A stretch of 5,736 nucleotides of DNA, taken from NCBI GenBank assembly GCA_016186945.1, contig JACPKR010000031.1, forward strand, positions 1 to 5,736, read 5' to 3'. A program made the position numbers and the translations under genes. Positions 1-5,736 of this stretch are shown here, in pieces; positions within the stretch are counted from its first letter, which is position 1; every line of letters starts with the position of its first letter. Origin of the DNA: Deltaproteobacteria bacterium (lineage in GTDB: Bacteria; Bdellovibrionota_B; Oligoflexia; Oligoflexales; Bog-1112). The notes beneath the pieces were generated by a model. The model searched no databases and was not told the origin of the DNA. It worked only from the letters and a program-made list of their open reading frames with translations.

Positions 1-317
1 AACTCCCTGACAATCAAGCTCTGAGGGAAAAAATATCGAGAGGCTGCCTGCCCAACTCCCTTGATGTAGGTGTCGAAGATCATCAGAAAGCCAGATTCAG
101 CGGCCTGGCGCAAGGCCCTGGCAATCGTCGTCGTGCTGAGGTCCAGCTCAGACGCCAACTTGGCTTGTGACATCGAAAGCCCGTCCAGGCCGTCCTGGTC
201 GTAGTGGTCAAACAAAGTTTTCAAAACTTTGATCGTGGTGGCGGCCAGCGGCAAACTTTCGATGTCAGCGTGGGAGATTCTTCTTGTAAGTGGATGCGTG
301 AATGCTACTGTCTTCAT
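1..317 (-). CDS. Winged helix-turn-helix DNA-binding protein, C-terminally truncated by the window edge
   Basis: I translated this from the reverse strand: ATG at 317-315, then 105 uninterrupted codons to the window's left edge with no stop, so the C-terminus lies outside. Residues 25-36 form an amphipathic helix. Residues 48-80 (LSMSQAKLASELDLS, then TTTIARALRQAAESGFL) read as a helix-turn-helix with a recognition helix around T62-A73. Residues 77-97 fit the beta-hairpin wing. The pattern resembles winged-helix domains of the HTH_36/MarR-like type found in transcription factors and in plasmid or phage replication proteins; which of these it is cannot be decided from the fragment. The start is supported by an AGGAG ribosome binding site at 325-329, 7 nt before the ATG. 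It is transcribed in the same direction as the gene at 535-1278 but lies 217 bp away, so it probably has its own promoter. A 9-1-9 palindrome lies inside the gene at 213-231. Confidence 0.72.
   Translation of the reverse strand, partial: MKTVAFTHPLTRRISHADIESLPLAATTIKVLKTLFDHYDQDGLDGLSMSQAKLASELDLSTTTIARALRQAAESGFLMIFDTYIKGVGQAASRYFFPQSLIVRE
213..231. repeat. Perfect 19-bp palindrome (9-1-9) inside the winged-helix gene
   Basis: The sequence caaagtttt, one centre base c, then aaaactttg is an exact inverted repeat. It covers roughly codons 29-35 of the winged-helix gene. It could be an intragenic binding site, including one for the encoded protein, or a coincidence of AAA/TTT-rich codons. The symmetry is directly visible; any function is inference. 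Confidence 0.5.
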
Positions 318-346
318 CAGACGACTCCTAGCTACTTAGGTTGTTG

Positions 347-375
347 TTTAGAGGTGCAAATGTTGTTATTAGCAA
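347..375 (-). promoter_or_regulatory. Candidate sigma70-type promoter for the winged-helix gene
   Basis: On the minus strand TTGCTA (375-370) is followed after exactly 17 nt by TCTAAA (352-347). Each box matches 4 of 6 consensus positions. Predicted initiation near 340 would give a leader of about 20 nt carrying the AGGAG site at 325-329, which is a sensible geometry. Both boxes lie in or overlap the inverted repeat at 351-386, which would suit an operator. The boxes are weak and this is a tentative call. Confidence 0.3.
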
Positions 376-386
376 CTTTGCGCCTC
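351..386. repeat. Imperfect inverted repeat (candidate operator or leader hairpin)
   Basis: The left arm 351-365 (gaggtgcaaatgttg) pairs with the right arm 373-386 (caactttgcgcctc) around a 7-nt loop at 366-372. This gives 14 base pairs, one a G-U wobble, with a single bulged t at 361. It lies 34 nt upstream of the winged-helix start codon and overlaps the candidate promoter. An autoregulatory operator is the most natural reading. It is not a typical intrinsic terminator because no clean T-run follows on either strand. Confidence 0.6.
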
Positions 387-451
387 GCCTTTATTGAGAA
401 TGTCTATGGAAAGTAGAACGTAGAATTTTTAGAAAGGCAAGATTTATTTTA

Positions 452-523
452 CTTGGTTCCTCCAAGAACGCTTGTAGCAAGGAGGTGGTTTGGAGGAAAC
501 TGCGCAGCTGGTTCCTCCAAGAA
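452..523. repeat. Three alternating copies of TTCCTCCAA / TTGGAGGAA (alternative-hairpin cluster)
   Basis: The 9-mer ttcctccaa occurs at 457-465, in reverse complement at 490-498, and again directly at 512-520. The outer two sit in an exact 15-bp direct repeat, tggttcctccaagaa, at 454-468 and 509-523. Copy 1 is itself a small hairpin (CTTGG-TTCCT-CCAAG, 452-466). The middle copy can pair with either neighbour: with 512-520 it forms a 10-bp stem with one bulge and a loop at 501-510. These structures exclude one another. The cluster starts about 12 bp beyond the stop codon of the 535-1278 gene, so it lies in that gene's 3' region. It may act in termination or 3'-end stability, or as a protein-binding cluster between the two minus-strand genes. 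On the minus strand the last hairpin is followed by TAAAATAAAT but no true U-run, so I do not call a terminator. Confidence 0.6.
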
Positions 524-534
524 ATCACTTGCAG

Positions 535-1278
535 TCAAAGTTCCTCTACTTCTTCCCTACAGTCACTGCTTCCCACCAAGTTTTCAACTGATTCGAAACC
601 AGATGACACTGCTTTTTCTACAGCGGGACCGTAGACCGGATCAAGAGCATGTAGAGAAAGAATCACTATCAAAGAACCATAGGCACCGTCGCTGGCGTCA
701 ACATAGCTGTTAGCTTCTTTCCCAGCCCTCCGGGCGCTCACCACACCTTTTACCACTGACTCCGGAACTTCAATCGCTGAGCTGACCGCAAAATTGGTCG
801 CAGGATCTGGGCCAAACAGCGAACCCAACAACTCGTAAGCCGCGTTGTTGTACGCTCCTGTCAAGACAACCAGTGGGTCCAGGGTCCATCCTCCCGCTAC
901 ATACTTCAACGACCCACCTAAGGCACCACAGGCAACATTTTTTAGGGAAACATAGCCAAGGCCAGGTACCCAAACTTTCGCATCTGCTTCAAAATACTCT
1001 TTGCATGCATAACGAACCCCGTAACCTAAAAAGGCGGCACCTGTTTTCACCAAAATAACTTGAGGTGCTACGGCATGGGTAAGCGCTAACGCGGAGAAGA
1101 GAACTCCTTCCACAAAAAGGCCACTCCGAACAGCATTGGGAAACGTTTTTCTAACGGCTTGATAGAGAGTTTTTTCTGAATGAGGGCTGCAGGCTGTTGT
1201 TTGCTGTTCTTTGGCCAAACTCAGGTTTGGCAACGCCAAACCGACGACGAGGGCTAAGGTATTTACATACCTTTTCAT
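535..1278 (-). CDS. Exported protein of unknown function, four cysteines, signal peptide
   Basis: This 247-residue protein begins with a Sec-type signal peptide: positive residues K2 and R3, a hydrophobic core (residues 8-17), and a likely signal peptidase I site after A22 (S20-L21-A22). No cysteine is placed to make it a lipoprotein. The mature part has four cysteines (C30, C92, C117, C240), which could form two disulfides in the periplasm or outside the cell. It also has small-residue-rich hydrophobic stretches around residues 53-88 and 105-155. These hold many Gly/Ala residues and are not clearly transmembrane. The last eight residues are acidic. GGGAGG at 1284-1289, 5 nt before the ATG, supports the start. 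It is divergent from the lipoprotein gene at 1441 and shares a 162-bp intergenic region with it. I do not recognise the family. The reading frame is sound, but the function is open. Confidence 0.8.
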   Translation of the reverse strand: MKRYVNTLALVVGLALPNLSLAKEQQTTACSPHSEKTLYQAVRKTFPNAVRSGLFVEGVLFSALALTHAVAPQVILVKTGAAFLGYGVRYACKEYFEADAKVWVPGLGYVSLKNVACGALGGSLKYVAGGWTLDPLVVLTGAYNNAAYELLGSLFGPDPATNFAVSSAIEVPESVVKGVVSARRAGKEANSYVDASDGAYGSLIVILSLHALDPVYGPAVEKAVSSGFESVENLVGSSDCREEVEEL

Positions 1279-1323
1279 GAAATCCTCCCAGTTTTAAAGG
1301 GGTTTTTGAAATACAAGACCGTG

Positions 1324-1352
1324 TTTATAGCAGGATGGCGATGAGACAGCAA
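1324..1352 (-). promoter_or_regulatory. Candidate promoter for the exported-protein gene
   Basis: Minus-strand TTGCTG (1352-1347) and TATAAA (1329-1324) are separated by 17 nt. The -10 box matches 5 of 6 consensus positions; the -35 box matches only TTG. Initiation near 1317 would leave a leader of about 38 nt ending in the GGGAGG ribosome binding site at 1284-1289. Position and spacing are good, but sequence support is modest. Confidence 0.35.
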
Positions 1353-1359
1353 CAGAAAT

Positions 1360-1383
1360 TTGGCTGGTGAGCCAATTTTTTTT
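1360..1383 (+). terminator. Intrinsic terminator in the 5' leader of the lipoprotein gene
   Basis: TTGGCT (1360-1365), loop GGTG, and AGCCAA (1370-1375) form a perfect 6-bp stem with a tetraloop. It is followed at once by eight T residues (1376-1383), the standard form of a Rho-independent terminator on the plus strand. No plus-strand gene lies upstream, since the neighbour at 535-1278 is divergent, so it is not an ordinary end-of-gene signal. It ends 57 nt before the lipoprotein start codon. It may be an attenuator for a transcript starting upstream, an end for a short leader or antisense RNA, or insulation with the real promoter lying downstream. Confidence 0.6.
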
Positions 1384-1428
1384 CGTCCCCTAAAGTTCAT
1401 CAAAAAAGAAACCGAAAAAAGCTTGATT

Positions 1429-1434
1429 GGGAGG
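1429..1434 (+). promoter_or_regulatory. Ribosome binding site that fixes the lipoprotein start at 1441
   Basis: GGGAGG lies 6 nt before ATG 1441 and directly precedes a canonical lipoprotein signal peptide. The reading frame stays open back to a TTG at 1360, but that codon lies in the terminator stem and lacks a comparable site. An out-of-frame ATG-TAA at 1436-1441 overlaps the true start; it is probably incidental. Confidence 0.75.
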
Positions 1435-1440
1435 TATGTA

Positions 1441-3951
1441 ATGCAGGCATTAATATTTTTAGTTTCTTTCCTTTTCCTTGCCGCTTGTCAAGAGTCCAAG
1501 CCCCAGGAAAGAAAATCAAGGACAGGCATATCTGACAAACCCGTCGCAACGGCAATGACGGAGGAAGGAGGCTCGAAAGTAGACGATGCCTCTGGACAAG
1601 GAGCAAGTGCTCCCGGTGAGGAAGAGGATGAGACCGCAGACGATGGCGCTCCTCCTAAGCCCAAAGGAAAATCGTGCATAACTCTGACTCCTGTGGAAAA
1701 TGGCAAGTGGCCCGAAGGAACGACGAGTGCTGATGACGGAAGTTCCATTACAGGAGCGTGCAATGAAGGCTATGATGGGAATCTAACTATCGCCTGCTTA
1801 GACGGGACTTGGGGGGCCGTGCAAAATACCTGTACGGAACGGCTATGTGCGAATCTAGACCAGGCAAAGCGAAACCTAACAGCGACTTTCGCATCGCAAA
1901 GTGCAAAAATCGGAGACTCGTTGACAGGAACGTGTGGAGCAGGCTTCGATGGATCGCCCGTAGCAAAGTGTGAACCCAACGGTTCATGGACGATTACAGG
2001 CGGATGTACACCTACGGGCCAGGCTCCTTGTACGAATCTAGAAACCTCTGTCGAACTTCTCCATGGAATTTGGCCTACAGACACCGACTCGGCGGACTGG
2101 GGCGCATCCATCGTGGGAACGTGTAACGAGGGGTTTAAGCCGTTCCCCTCACAACCCACTGCGACTTGTGTAAATGGCACCTGGAGATTTACTCCTGGAT
2201 GCGAGTCGAGTTGCACCAATTTAGACAAGACTCCGCCCGCAAACGGCACTTGGATTACAGCTAAAGATGCAGTCATTCCTGCGGGACAATATGCAACAGG
2301 GGTATGTGAAAAAGGTTACTACGGGGATTTTTCCGTCGCGTGCCGACAGGGCAATTGGGCGAACCGCATAGCAGGTGGATGTACGCCAGATGGACAAGAG
2401 CAATGCTCTAGCTCTACCCTTAGTTCACTTGCAAACGGGGTGTGGGAACGAACGTCCGCACATTGGTTCGAGACACAACCCATTCAGGGCACCTGTAATG
2501 CAGGTTTCATTGGCAACCCTACAGCAAGCTGCACACCGAACGCAGCTCTGAGTGCCGCCTTATGGGTGAGCAACGGAACCTGTGTTCAAGGCTGCTTAAA
2601 GGCCGATCTCGACAGCGCCTATAACCTTGTTTATGGTTCTTGGAAATGGCCTCCCGGACTATCAGCACAACTGCTCCCTGATTCTGCACCAACGATTGTT
2701 GGAGAGTGTAATCCTGGAGCTACAGGAACTTCAGACCCACCTGCAGCGAAATGCACCGACCACGGATGGGAAGTTTCCGGAGACTGCGGGGCGATCTGCT
2801 CGGGGTTAAGCACCCCTCTGGATCATGGCACATGGGAGAAGAAAAGCACTGGCTGGGGAACAACAGTGACAGGAACCTGTATCTCGCCATGGGACGGTAG
2901 CCCACAGATTGAGTGCAAGGCAGATGGAACATGGGGAAATTTAGTTGGAGACTGCAATAAATCGCTCAATGACTTTGCAGATGGAGGTGTTTACACCATA
3001 AAGTGGGCAAAAGCAACCCCAGCAAGGTTGATGACTTTGCACTATCAATTCTCAACCGATCTAATTGGCGCAGATAAAGACTGGAGAAAAACACAAATAT
3101 ACACCTCTAGTGGCATAGCCGCTCTCGCTGAGGGTCGTCAACAGTGGAGACTTCACTATGCCTATGGCGAAGATAAAACGAATTGCTACAAAATAAAATC
3201 ATTAAAATATGAGACTACAGATGGGACTGGTTGGTTCCTGAAGGCTTACTCTAAGGACAGTGGCTACTGGGGGCTGGCTGTGATTCAATCCGCTCAAATT
3301 GACGCAAGTCAGACTTGGTGTTTTACAAAAGACCTGATAACCTCAAACTACCAGATCGTGCAAAAATCCTCAGGGAGCGCATTGAGTGGCTATGAAAACC
3401 ATGATTACAAAGCTATAATCCGAACAATGCCCGATTCTCGAGAGGATGTCATGAAATGGAAAGCCGTCGACGACTGGCACCTTCGACATATGGTTGATTA
3501 TGGTACGGATAAAGCAAGGTATCTGGATGCTTATGAATGCACAAGGACTGTTACCACAAGAACGTACCAGAGCGACCTCACGCAAAAGTGGCGCTTCGCG
3601 AATGAGTTTGGTAAAGGAGCAAATGACGTCGATATTTGGCGATGGGACGAAAAGACTTGCGGGGGCTTAGTCCAGAACGACGCCGTAAGGATAAAACACT
3701 CTCATACAGGCGGCGACCTTCTCAAAACCGCGACATGGACCGAAGTAGGTAAGTGGGAGTATGCGCAATGGGACGTAATAGCCAAAGACGATTATGTTTT
3801 CATGTTCAGAACGGGGCCCACAAGGGAAGTAGCAGAGTATCTGACTGCTTACTTCTCGGACCCTTGGGCTGTTAAGGTTGAAACCAAAGCGACAAACCCT
3901 GGCCCCACCCAACTCTGGATTATAGAAAAGTATATTCCTCCATCTCCATAG
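1441..3951 (+). CDS. Large modular surface lipoprotein: seven CCP/sushi-like modules and a ricin-type beta-trefoil-like C-terminal half
   Basis: The product is 836 residues, taking ATG 1441 as start. Residues 1-16 are a lipoprotein signal peptide with lipobox LAAC; C16 would be lipidated, and Q at +2 fits outer-membrane delivery under the E. coli Lol rule. Residues 17-78 form a charged Glu/Asp/Ser/Gly/Pro-rich linker. Seven four-cysteine modules follow, bounded by cysteines at 79-131, 136-189, 197-254, 258-314, 322-381, 385-449 and 453-505. Each follows C..L...G.W...G...GtC..Gf.G...C...G.W...C, the layout of complement-control-protein (sushi) domains. The C-terminal 330 residues carry six QxW-type motifs with Trp at 569, 626, 673, 717, 777 and 826, spaced 44-60 residues, as in ricin-B-type beta-trefoils. 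Cysteines C582/C627 and C700/C740 suggest one disulfide per trefoil. A likely role is carbohydrate or protein binding at the cell surface; no enzymatic domain is visible. It is convergent with the barrel gene at 3956-5185. Domain identity is by pattern only. Confidence 0.85.
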   Translation: MQALIFLVSFLFLAACQESKPQERKSRTGISDKPVATAMTEEGGSKVDDASGQGASAPGEEEDETADDGAPPKPKGKSCITLTPVENGKWPEGTTSADDGSSITGACNEGYDGNLTIACLDGTWGAVQNTCTERLCANLDQAKRNLTATFASQSAKIGDSLTGTCGAGFDGSPVAKCEPNGSWTITGGCTPTGQAPCTNLETSVELLHGIWPTDTDSADWGASIVGTCNEGFKPFPSQPTATCVNGTWRFTPGCESSCTNLDKTPPANGTWITAKDAVIPAGQYATGVCEKGYYGDFSVACRQGNWANRIAGGCTPDGQEQCSSSTLSSLANGVWERTSAHWFETQPIQGTCNAGFIGNPTASCTPNAALSAALWVSNGTCVQGCLKADLDSAYNLVYGSWKWPPGLSAQLLPDSAPTIVGECNPGATGTSDPPAAKCTDHGWEVSGDCGAICSGLSTPLDHGTWEKKSTGWGTTVTGTCISPWDGSPQIECKADGTWGNLVGDCNKSLNDFADGGVYTIKWAKATPARLMTLHYQFSTDLIGADKDWRKTQIYTSSGIAALAEGRQQWRLHYAYGEDKTNCYKIKSLKYETTDGTGWFLKAYSKDSGYWGLAVIQSAQIDASQTWCFTKDLITSNYQIVQKSSGSALSGYENHDYKAIIRTMPDSREDVMKWKAVDDWHLRHMVDYGTDKARYLDAYECTRTVTTRTYQSDLTQKWRFANEFGKGANDVDIWRWDEKTCGGLVQNDAVRIKHSHTGGDLLKTATWTEVGKWEYAQWDVIAKDDYVFMFRTGPTREVAEYLTAYFSDPWAVKVETKATNPGPTQLWIIEKYIPPSP
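1675..2955 (+). repeat. Seven in-frame CCP/sushi-like coding repeats
   Basis: These are the nucleotides encoding the seven four-cysteine modules (first cysteine codon 1675, last 2953). Module starts share recognisable DNA: tgtgcgaatctagac at 1846, tgtacgaatctagaa at 2029 and tgcaccaatttagac at 2212 all encode C-(A/T)-N-L-(D/E). This points to growth by internal duplication, with modules 2-4 the closest at this point. Module lengths run from 53 to 65 residues. The fifth and sixth are the longest and most divergent. Confidence 0.7.
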
Positions 3952-3955
3952 ACAT

Positions 3956-5185
3956 CTAAAACGTCATGAGAAACGATGCCTGACCTCCCCCCCAGGGTTG
4001 GAAGGGGACTCCTCGGTGGTCCCAGAGTCGGTCGAGGTCCCAGGTGAGGTTCCAGAAGGAGATCGCGTTGTCGGAGAAGTTAAGTTCGAAGGCTGTCTGA
4101 ATTTTCAACTCCCTGTCCAGTTCATATTCACTGTCGACATCGAATCTCATGCGGTTGTAGAACAATCCCCACTGCCAGCGTGCGAAGCTTGACAGCGGGC
4201 GGTTTCGCGTAAACGCAAGCGCCCACTCTTGCCGCGTAGAATCGGGGCTGAAACGTTCAGGTTGTGCGGAACCCTCGATATAATCGTAGTCTGCGTGTCG
4301 AAAGATGGACTGCACGAAGAACTTCGTAAGTTTGTCGTCCTTCTCCCTTAGAAGTCCAAGCTCGACTGTTTCCGCAAAACGATCCATGGATTTTCGGTAA
4401 CCCACCGAGGTCCATTCCTTTGCTTCTGCTTTTCGTTCTCGTTCCCATGATAGATAAAGTGCGCTGGCCCTCCATGTAGGGGATCTTAATTTGACATGCT
4501 CTTTGATTTTTCGGTATTCGTACACGTAGCCTTGATTGCCTCTGTACCATACCAGGGGTTGGTCGTGTTCCAGCGTGGCTTGCACCTCACTGTCCCCCCA
4601 CAGCGTCCAGCGAGTTTTCGCTCCCACGGTTCTCAGGTATTTCGGGTCACGTGAGTTTTCGACGAATTCCACTTTCGAATTGTAGTAGTGGTCCACGCTC
4701 CAATAGAAGACTTCGAAGTAGCGGTTCTCACTCTGGCGAAAACCAAGTGCTCCGCCCATATCTGCCCATTTCTTGAAGGTTCCTCCATCTGCCAGCAGAG
4801 AAAAATAGGGACCCATGGGGGTATTCAATGTAAGACGAAGCTCCTGGAAAAAATTCTGCTCCAGCAGACTCTCATCCCTTTGTTGTAAGAAATGCAGATC
4901 GACAACTTGAGGTTCTCGGGAAGAGCCGAGCTTGATGGTCTCCAGAAAGGCGAAGCGGGCAAGATCTAGACTTCCTGCCGACACCCTGTAGCCTATTTGA
5001 GCTACGTCGAAGTATCGGGACCACAGGTAAGGGTAGTCATAGCTATTGATGTCGTTGAAGTACTCGCTGCTTAATCGTTCCTCACGATCCACTTCGTCTG
5101 CGTCCGTGTGGTAGAAGCGTCCTTCGGCAGTATAAGCAATTGAAACGGTAAGGAGGGGGGTAACGAACGAGCATAGACTTCGCAT
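3956..5185 (-). CDS. Outer-membrane beta-barrel protein of unknown specificity
   Basis: With the start taken at ATG 5185-5183 the product is 409 residues. It opens with a Sec signal peptide (MRSLCSFVTPLLTVSIAYTA, probable cleavage after TA or AEG). The body has many alternating polar/aromatic stretches rich in Tyr, Trp, Phe and Arg (for example RYFEVFYWSVDHYY and ARWQWGLFYNRMRF). It ends SFLMTF, with the terminal Phe typical of proteins inserted by the BAM machinery. No TonB box, plug domain or OmpA-like peptidoglycan domain is visible, so a simple porin- or channel-like barrel is the best reading. An in-frame ATG two codons upstream (5191) lies only 1 nt from the GAGG site and is the poorer start. 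The gene is convergent with the lipoprotein gene. It lies downstream of the GIY-YIG gene on the same strand, 96 bp away. I do not recognise the specific family. Confidence 0.8.
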   Translation of the reverse strand: MRSLCSFVTPLLTVSIAYTAEGRFYHTDADEVDREERLSSEYFNDINSYDYPYLWSRYFDVAQIGYRVSAGSLDLARFAFLETIKLGSSREPQVVDLHFLQQRDESLLEQNFFQELRLTLNTPMGPYFSLLADGGTFKKWADMGGALGFRQSENRYFEVFYWSVDHYYNSKVEFVENSRDPKYLRTVGAKTRWTLWGDSEVQATLEHDQPLVWYRGNQGYVYEYRKIKEHVKLRSPTWRASALYLSWERERKAEAKEWTSVGYRKSMDRFAETVELGLLREKDDKLTKFFVQSIFRHADYDYIEGSAQPERFSPDSTRQEWALAFTRNRPLSSFARWQWGLFYNRMRFDVDSEYELDRELKIQTAFELNFSDNAISFWNLTWDLDRLWDHRGVPFQPWGGGQASFLMTF

Positions 5186-5192
5186 CGGCATG

Positions 5193-5196
5193 CCTC
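5193..5196 (-). promoter_or_regulatory. Ribosome binding site deciding the barrel-protein start
   Basis: Minus-strand GAGG (within GTGAGG) sits 1 nt before ATG 5191 but 7 nt before ATG 5185. Normal spacing therefore selects the second ATG and shortens the product by two residues. The signal peptide is intact either way. Confidence 0.5.
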
Positions 5197-5230
5197 ACAT
5201 GATGTTTTTCCTAATATCATAGCATCATGT
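5197..5230. repeat. 8-bp inverted repeat upstream of the barrel gene
   Basis: acatgatg (5197-5204) and catcatgt (5223-5230) are exact reverse complements separated by 18 nt. The pair lies directly upstream of the barrel gene's ribosome binding site. A minus-strand TATGAT (5222-5217) lies between the arms and could be a -10 box, but no -35 box is seen at the right distance. A regulator-binding site is possible; arms this short can arise by chance. Confidence 0.35.
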
Positions 5231-5253
5231 CTCGACAGCGGGGTCCACTTCCT

Positions 5254-5275
5254 CCTGCTATTATCCTGCTATTAT
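5254..5275. repeat. Tandem duplication of an 11-bp unit
   Basis: cctgctattat is present twice head to tail (5254-5264 and 5265-5275) and is followed by the start of a third partial copy (cct). It lies just past the stop codon of the GIY-YIG gene, between it and the barrel gene. On the minus strand each copy contains GATAAT, which resembles a -10 box, but there is no supporting -35 box. Replication slippage is the simplest origin. Confidence 0.5.
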
Positions 5276-5281
5276 CCTCTT

Positions 5282-5569
5282 CTATATTATAGCCTCGTAC
5301 AAATCCAACCACGACGGATTGGTTTTTTCGATCAGGGCTAGCTTCCATTTTCGAGGCCATTCTTTCAGACGCTTTTCACGTTTTATTGCATTAGTCATAT
5401 TATCGAAATGTTCATAGTAGACCAGTTTATCGACTTGGTATTTTGCAGTGAAACCCTCGATTGATTTGTTTTTGTGTTCCCAAACACGTTTGACGATGTG
5501 GGAGGTGACACCAACATACAAGGTCCCATTTCGTCTGCTTGCCAGTATGTATACGCAAGGGTTTTTCAT
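5282..5569 (-). CDS. Stand-alone GIY-YIG nuclease superfamily protein
   Basis: The 95-residue product is the usual length for single-domain GIY-YIG proteins (UvrC/Slx1-like N-terminal fold), which cut DNA with one metal ion. Residues 6-9 (VYIL) and 18-20 (YVG, in GTLYVGVTS) are the two halves of the signature. R28 in the following helix (KRVWEHK), E65 in AIKREKRLKEW and N84 in NPSWLDLYE fit the conserved Arg, metal-binding Glu and Asn. All catalytic positions therefore appear intact. No other domain is attached, so the target is unknown. Upstream AGAGA at 5576-5580 is only a weak ribosome binding site. The start codon lies 17 bp from a perfect GC-rich palindrome and a tandem repeat array (5587-5736). 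The gene may be expressed from within or beyond that array. Stand-alone genes of this type are widespread next to repeats in proteobacteria and often seem recently acquired. Confidence 0.9.
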   Translation of the reverse strand: MKNPCVYILASRRNGTLYVGVTSHIVKRVWEHKNKSIEGFTAKYQVDKLVYYEHFDNMTNAIKREKRLKEWPRKWKLALIEKTNPSWLDLYEAII

Positions 5570-5586
5570 AAGGCGTCTCTAGTTGG

Positions 5587-5609
5587 ATCCCGCGGTCAAG
5601 CCGCGGGAT
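5587..5609. repeat. Perfect GC-rich palindrome upstream of the GIY-YIG gene
   Basis: atcccgcgg (5587-5595) and ccgcgggat (5601-5609) are exact inverted repeats around the loop tcaag. A t-g wobble adds a tenth pair. On the minus strand it reads gtcatcccgcggcttgacc and onward. Palindromes of this kind are dispersed in many proteobacterial genomes, where their chance translations appear as VIPRLDRGIQ-like peptides. The right arm is also the start of the tandem array. Confidence 0.75.
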
Positions 5610-5736
5610 GACAAAGCCGCAAACCGCGGGATGACAAAGCCGCAAACCGCGGGATGACAAAGCCGCAAACCGCGGGATGACAAAGCCGCAAACCGCGGGA
5701 TGACAAAGCCGCAAACCGCGGGATGACAAAGCCGCA
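5601..5736. repeat. Tandem array of an exact 23-bp unit, open at the window end
   Basis: Units start at 5601, 5624, 5647, 5670, 5693 and 5716. The first five are complete and identical, and the sixth is cut by the window edge after 21 bases, so the array length is unknown. Each unit begins ccgcgggatgacaaag and ends ccgcaaa, and contains the self-complementary hexamer ccgcgg. The first half of the unit equals the right arm of the adjacent palindrome, so the array appears to have grown from half of it. There are no unique spacers, so this is not a CRISPR array. Because 23 is not a multiple of 3, all frames are cycled, which creates a spurious minus-strand open frame. Confidence 0.9.

Follow-up and report, generated by a model that had tools for sequence, protein, structure and literature searches.

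We analysed a stretch of 5,736 nucleotides (the window; contig JACPKR010000031.1, positions 1 to 5,736, of assembly GCA_016186945.1) from a bacterium of the order Oligoflexales, in which an open reading frame (ORF) at 1441-3951 of the forward strand (start ATG at 1441, stop at 3949-3951) encodes a predicted lipoprotein of 836 amino acids. A ribosome-binding site, GGGAGG, was read in the sequence at 1429..1434 (+), 6 nt upstream of the ATG. Because the predicted type II signal peptide (1441..1488, +; MQALIFLVSFLFLAAC) ends in the lipobox LAAC, Cys16 is taken to be the lipidated residue, and a paralogue encoded in the same genome has LLLFSC at the corresponding position. Next comes an acidic low-complexity linker, recognised by its composition (EEGGSKVDD...GEEEDETADD; 1489..1674, +), and the linker of the paralogue is similarly acidic. 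An earlier note, made from the letters of the window, had read here a lipidated cysteine and an acidic stalk, followed by seven complement control protein (CCP)/sushi modules and two beta-trefoil-like domains; lipobox and linker bear out the first part of that description.

Seven CCP/sushi modules

All 28 cysteines of residues 79-505 sort into seven four-cysteine modules, with spacings of 27-38 (Cys1-Cys2), 12-15 (Cys2-Cys3) and 11-17 (Cys3-Cys4), and a tryptophan lies between Cys3 and Cys4 in every one of the seven, or in 14 out of 14 when those of the paralogue are counted. The Pfam Sushi profile (PF00084) matched the protein with 53.2 bits (E 3.9e-14), far over its cut-off of 20.7 bits, and three stretches pass that cut-off. 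The modules were also scored with a model built only from the seven modules of the paralogue, using as controls shuffled sequences with the cysteines kept in place; all seven reached 17.9-54.0 bits, against 12.5 bits at most for the shuffles. Along the forward strand the array comprises module 1 (residues 79-131; 1675..1833), which scored 22.7 bits with PF00084, over the cut-off, and 51.8 bits with the paralogue model; module 2 (136-189; 1846..2007), with 19.4 and 43.9 bits, respectively; module 3 (197-254; 2029..2202), with 27.3 bits, again over the cut-off, and 42.2 bits; module 4 (258-314; 2212..2382) and module 5 (322-381; 2404..2583), with 43.9 and 35.7 bits in the paralogue model; module 6 (385-449; 2593..2787), the most divergent, with 17.9 bits against at most 10.6 in its 200 shuffles; and module 7 (453-505; 2797..2955), with 13.4 bits in PF00084 and 54.0 bits in the paralogue model.

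An AlphaFold model of the full protein, computed from a two-row alignment and of modest confidence, gave values of the predicted local distance difference test (pLDDT) mostly of 60-77 for modules 1-4 and mostly below 50 for modules 5-7. Submitted to Foldseek, this model retrieved 106 PDB matches at E <= 0.001, the best being beta2-glycoprotein I (E 2.7e-13, probability 1.00), and the 50 listed of these 106 are CCP-containing proteins or their complexes (beta2-glycoprotein I, CD55, CD46, factor H). Both the Pfam match and the fold search with the model therefore confirm that residues 79-505 are seven CCP/sushi modules with the CCP fold; the outcome that would have spoken for a different, non-CCP fold was not the one obtained. 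In a PDB sequence search the protein also matched factor H (E 2.8e-7).

Sushi modules are textbook parts of animal complement and adhesion proteins, and with complement proteins as the top matches in both sequence and fold it could be asked whether the modules mimic complement regulators and interfere with animal complement. We regard this as scarcely credible, given that such matches reflect a shared fold, that no animal association of the lineage was found, and that the putative lectin tip and the low identity argue otherwise.

A paralogue and the C-terminal third

The paralogue (G000:C40; 799 amino acids) aligns with the window protein over its full length (E 2e-69, 27% identity) and has the same plan in the same order, from lipobox and acidic linker to seven modules. 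Corresponding modules of the pair score higher against each other (mean 85.9) than non-corresponding ones (64.9), and the collinear pairing is equalled by only 64 of the 5040 possible module orders. Because corresponding modules are more alike and the collinear order is so rarely matched, the seven-module array probably predates the duplication that gave rise to the pair. The paralogue lies on a different contig, where it adjoins secD-like and ABC-transporter-like genes (named by reading their translations) and is preceded by a gene for a small cysteine-rich lipoprotein. Two diverged paralogues of one plan in a single genome would also suit recognition of self or kin, or aggregation, through glycans or proteins of sister cells, a very improbable role in our judgement.

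The C-terminal 331 residues (506-836) contain four scattered cysteines and strict QxW motifs at 567, 624, 715 and 824; of the six QxW-type motifs counted earlier these four stand as such, and the remaining two, MKW and AQW, belong there only in the looser sense of that wording. In the paralogue the first half of the C-terminus matched RicinB_lectin_2 (PF14200) above the cut-off (55 bits, E 1.3e-14), the second trefoil matched it below the cut-off (18.8 bits), and the ulvan lyase trefoil PF24208 was matched weakly. On sequence comparison the C-termini of the two proteins are homologous (BLASTP E 2e-5). A trefoil model of the six paralogue repeats scored 30.5 bits against the C-terminus of the window protein, compared with at most 7.4 bits for shuffles, recovering five segments in order, two of them weak, and not repeat 5. 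Moreover, a profile of both C-termini matched a solved agglutinin, 2x2s (E 0.0034).

A first putative beta-trefoil, with approximate boundaries at residues 516-675 (2986..3465, +), is thus placed where the protein is collinear with the RicinB_lectin_2 domain of the paralogue and matches the repeat model, without a direct Pfam match; a second (about residues 676-836; 3466..3948, +) is suggested by the segments RYLDAYE...QKW and YLTAY...QLW, which match the same model, and by the BLASTP alignment. Since a full-length paralogue has RicinB_lectin_2 at the corresponding position, with repeats that can be traced through the window protein in the same order, a double beta-trefoil at residues 506-836 is well supported by homology, though not demonstrated structurally. 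The earlier trefoil claim accordingly holds through the paralogue, but not by a direct family match or by the two structure predictions described below.

Distribution, relatives and neighbourhood

The host was placed in Oligoflexales by the LepA of the window contig, whose best named match is at 74% and whose named relatives are environmental metagenome-assembled genomes. We searched Pfam Sushi in 43 genomes of the order and 58 of the phylum, the 43 being included in the latter. Over-cut-off matches occurred in four genomes, all from the host's own family (4/8), and in none of the other 50 genomes of the phylum, so that within the phylum genomes searched sushi modules are restricted to one Oligoflexales family. 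At E 1e-4 no match was found among 368 Bdellovibrionota or 392 Planctomycetota genomes, in a search without a positive control of its own. Because 16 of 377 Myxococcota genomes do contain sushi modules, the richest of them at least 16, these modules are rare but not new in bacteria; the description of the fold as uncommon there was correct, although it has precedent. C-termini of the window type were found, among the 43 genomes of the order, only in the two proteins of the host genome. One scan of genome contigs with the window protein gave no match, and a whole-protein search gave a weak one in another genome (G001, L003), which was set aside as it falls within an open frame of 115 aa where no gene is clearly recognisable.

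Relatives in the family carry other C-terminal domains on sushi modules, or none, which suggests a stalk with exchangeable tips. In the same genus, one ORF joins a sushi module to a glycosyltransferase-like domain (PF03407 at 23 bits, its cut-off being 22; PF05637 narrowly missed its own), its lipoprotein start being separated by an assembly gap. In genome G007 a lipoprotein of 580 aa combines at least four sushi modules with a C-terminal part resembling a J domain (it has the HPD motif, at a Pfam E of only 0.068), and in G004 an exported protein of 247 aa has a single sushi module supported by Pfam. As a tentative idea, somewhat less likely to be true than false, CCP/sushi modules may serve in this family as a general lipid-anchored rod with swapped tips (double lectin, glycosyltransferase-like, J-domain-like), a set of surface tools, made from an animal-type module, for making contact with prey or eukaryotic hosts. 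Also in this genus, two putative lipoproteins (L143:438-1967 and L144:455-1954, both on the minus strand) combine a ricin-type trefoil with a capsular-synthesis/DXD glycosyltransferase domain (PF05704, E 3.1e-18 and 5.5e-15, respectively; PF04488 also in L143). This points to glycosyltransferases, exported or at the surface, that include lectin parts.

RicinB_lectin_2, without sushi rods, is common in the order (18 of the 43 Oligoflexales genomes) and is strongly expanded in G040, G035 and G038, with 52, 32 and 20 matches per genome. That this family is common in the order and abundant in some members, together with the weak ulvan lyase trefoil match of the paralogue, would fit a lipoprotein for polysaccharide foraging or matrix binding, with the trefoils as carbohydrate-binding modules gripping algal or bacterial exopolysaccharide instead of a living cell. 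Such a role, although the strongest of the alternatives, seems unlikely to us, as the protein is without an enzyme domain and no match resembling a carbohydrate-active enzyme was found among the neighbouring ORFs scanned.

The lipoprotein gene is flanked by a convergent gene for a 411-aa exported protein (3956-5191, minus strand) that ends in FLMTF, looks like an outer-membrane barrel by eye and has no match in Pfam or NCBIfam, and by a divergent gene for a 247-aa exported protein without family match (535-1278, minus strand). Since both flanking genes run in the opposite direction and gave no match in the family scan, genomic context does not decide the role. A tandem array of a 23-bp unit (CAAACCGCGGGATGACAAAGCCG) occupies 5597-5736 of the window, the unit recurs at 5784-5852, and a related array spans 5994-6059 (L019). 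The array in the window continues into these copies, but it is interrupted by a masked contig stretch, and its translated frames resemble the dispersed repeat 'VIPRLDRGIQ'. The 16.6-kb contig also encodes lepA, uvrA-like and dnaJ-like genes. The C-terminal extension of the dnaJ-like ORF (L019:9897-11147; PFSKTSISKVFWGEAWGGTFFQKRSSPQMLF) recurs in a spurious ORF on another contig (L002:1013-1417) and is apparently a dispersed repeat running into the gene end.

Eukaryotic contamination was rejected because of the bacterial lipoprotein signal, the ribosome-binding site and these bacterial genes on the same contig. A mobile or viral origin was likewise rejected, because neither the 72,556 plasmids nor the 50,697 phage records searched gave a match to the protein. 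GC content at third codon positions is the same in the sushi (0.465) and trefoil (0.470) parts and close to that of one neighbour gene (0.44), so there is no compositional sign of recent acquisition.

Proposed function and comparison with known systems

The best explanation, which we hold to be fairly probable, is that the window protein is an outer-membrane lipoprotein working as a short fibrillar adhesin, with a sushi rod and lectin tips. The lipidated N-terminus and the flexible acidic linker would anchor it, seven disulfide-stapled CCP modules of about 3.5-4 nm each would form a stiff rod of about 25 nm if extended, and at the far, C-terminal end two lectin-like beta-trefoils would attach to polysaccharide or to the glycans of another cell (prey or alga). 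We infer surface display, sugar binding and a role in attachment; most likely the rod stands on the outer membrane and holds out a lectin with which the cell attaches to prey, algae or polysaccharide. Fibrillar adhesins are defined by an anchor, tandem stalk domains and a distal adhesive domain (PMC8286594), and the order lipobox, seven CCP modules and putative double trefoil fits this plan. An Oligoflexales bacterium, not yet in pure culture, is reported to attach to, replicate in and kill Nannochloropsis (PMC12865303); members of the order therefore probably attach to eukaryotic cells, and eukaryotic algae are a reasonable target.

Several observations weigh against this explanation. Searched with Pfam, as the earlier note had suggested, residues 506-836 of the window protein matched no family, RicinB (PF14200) included, although the threshold was relaxed to E 10. 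AlphaFold did not confirm the trefoil, either there (pLDDT about 20-38) or in the paralogue C-terminus (pLDDT 31.5), whose model retrieved nothing significant in a fold search, and hhalign gave no match to an alignment of four RicinB domains taken from the same bacterial family. Among the ORFs scanned beside the lipoprotein gene, none is a gene for predation, colonisation or secretion, the host is an uncultured bacterium, and many lipoproteins face the periplasm.

The last point leads to the alternative of a periplasmic lipoprotein, whose rod would reach from the outer membrane across the periplasm, a compartment in which CCP disulfides can form, to bind peptidoglycan or other glycans of the envelope. 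It seems to us distinctly unlikely, because seven CCP modules and two trefoils, if extended, exceed the typical width of the periplasm as generally known, and because the variation of tips among relatives fits changing external targets better.

A bacterial family that mounts exchangeable tips on sushi stalks offers candidates for the means by which these uncultured bacteria may hold on to their targets, microalgal predators having been reported from the order; it would also allow the transfer or independent use of the sushi module outside animals to be traced. Neither sushi modules in Oligoflexales nor bacterial sushi adhesins were found in the literature searched, which largely omits subscription journals; nor was a description of seven CCP modules and a putative double trefoil on a bacterial lipid anchor, a combination that is family-restricted, with other tips in relatives.

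Animal CCP proteins (factor H, CD55, beta2-glycoprotein I) share with the window protein the tandem four-cysteine modules, the tryptophan between Cys3 and Cys4 and, by the model, the fold, but the window protein differs in its bacterial lipid anchor and putative trefoil tip, in showing no sign of complement function, in having mostly GGC, GTC or GDC and not P-x-C at Cys4, and in a frequent extra GxW after Cys1. Sushi-repeat proteins of Myxococcota (e.g. L108, L109 and L113) are likewise exported, at least some with a lipoprotein signal and some with tandem modules, although their modules score much higher in Pfam (up to 59.7 bits), some are joined to EGF or FGE-sulfatase domains, and none of those examined has a lectin tip. 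Fibrillar adhesins resemble the window protein in anchor, tandem stalk and distal domain, which in the window protein is putatively adhesive, whereas the main text of their survey (PMC8286594) does not mention sushi stalks or ricin-type tips, and the window protein is anchored by a lipid at its N-terminus. Within the same Oligoflexales family, RicinB_lectin_2 proteins (e.g. G003:C58 and G003:C275) end in tandem double ricin-type trefoils, as the window protein putatively does, but have pentapeptide or other N-terminal parts without sushi rods, and the putative trefoils of the window protein have diverged much further. Each part is already known from elsewhere: sushi modules in bacteria from Myxococcota, ricin-type lectins from the order, and the overall plan from fibrillar adhesins.
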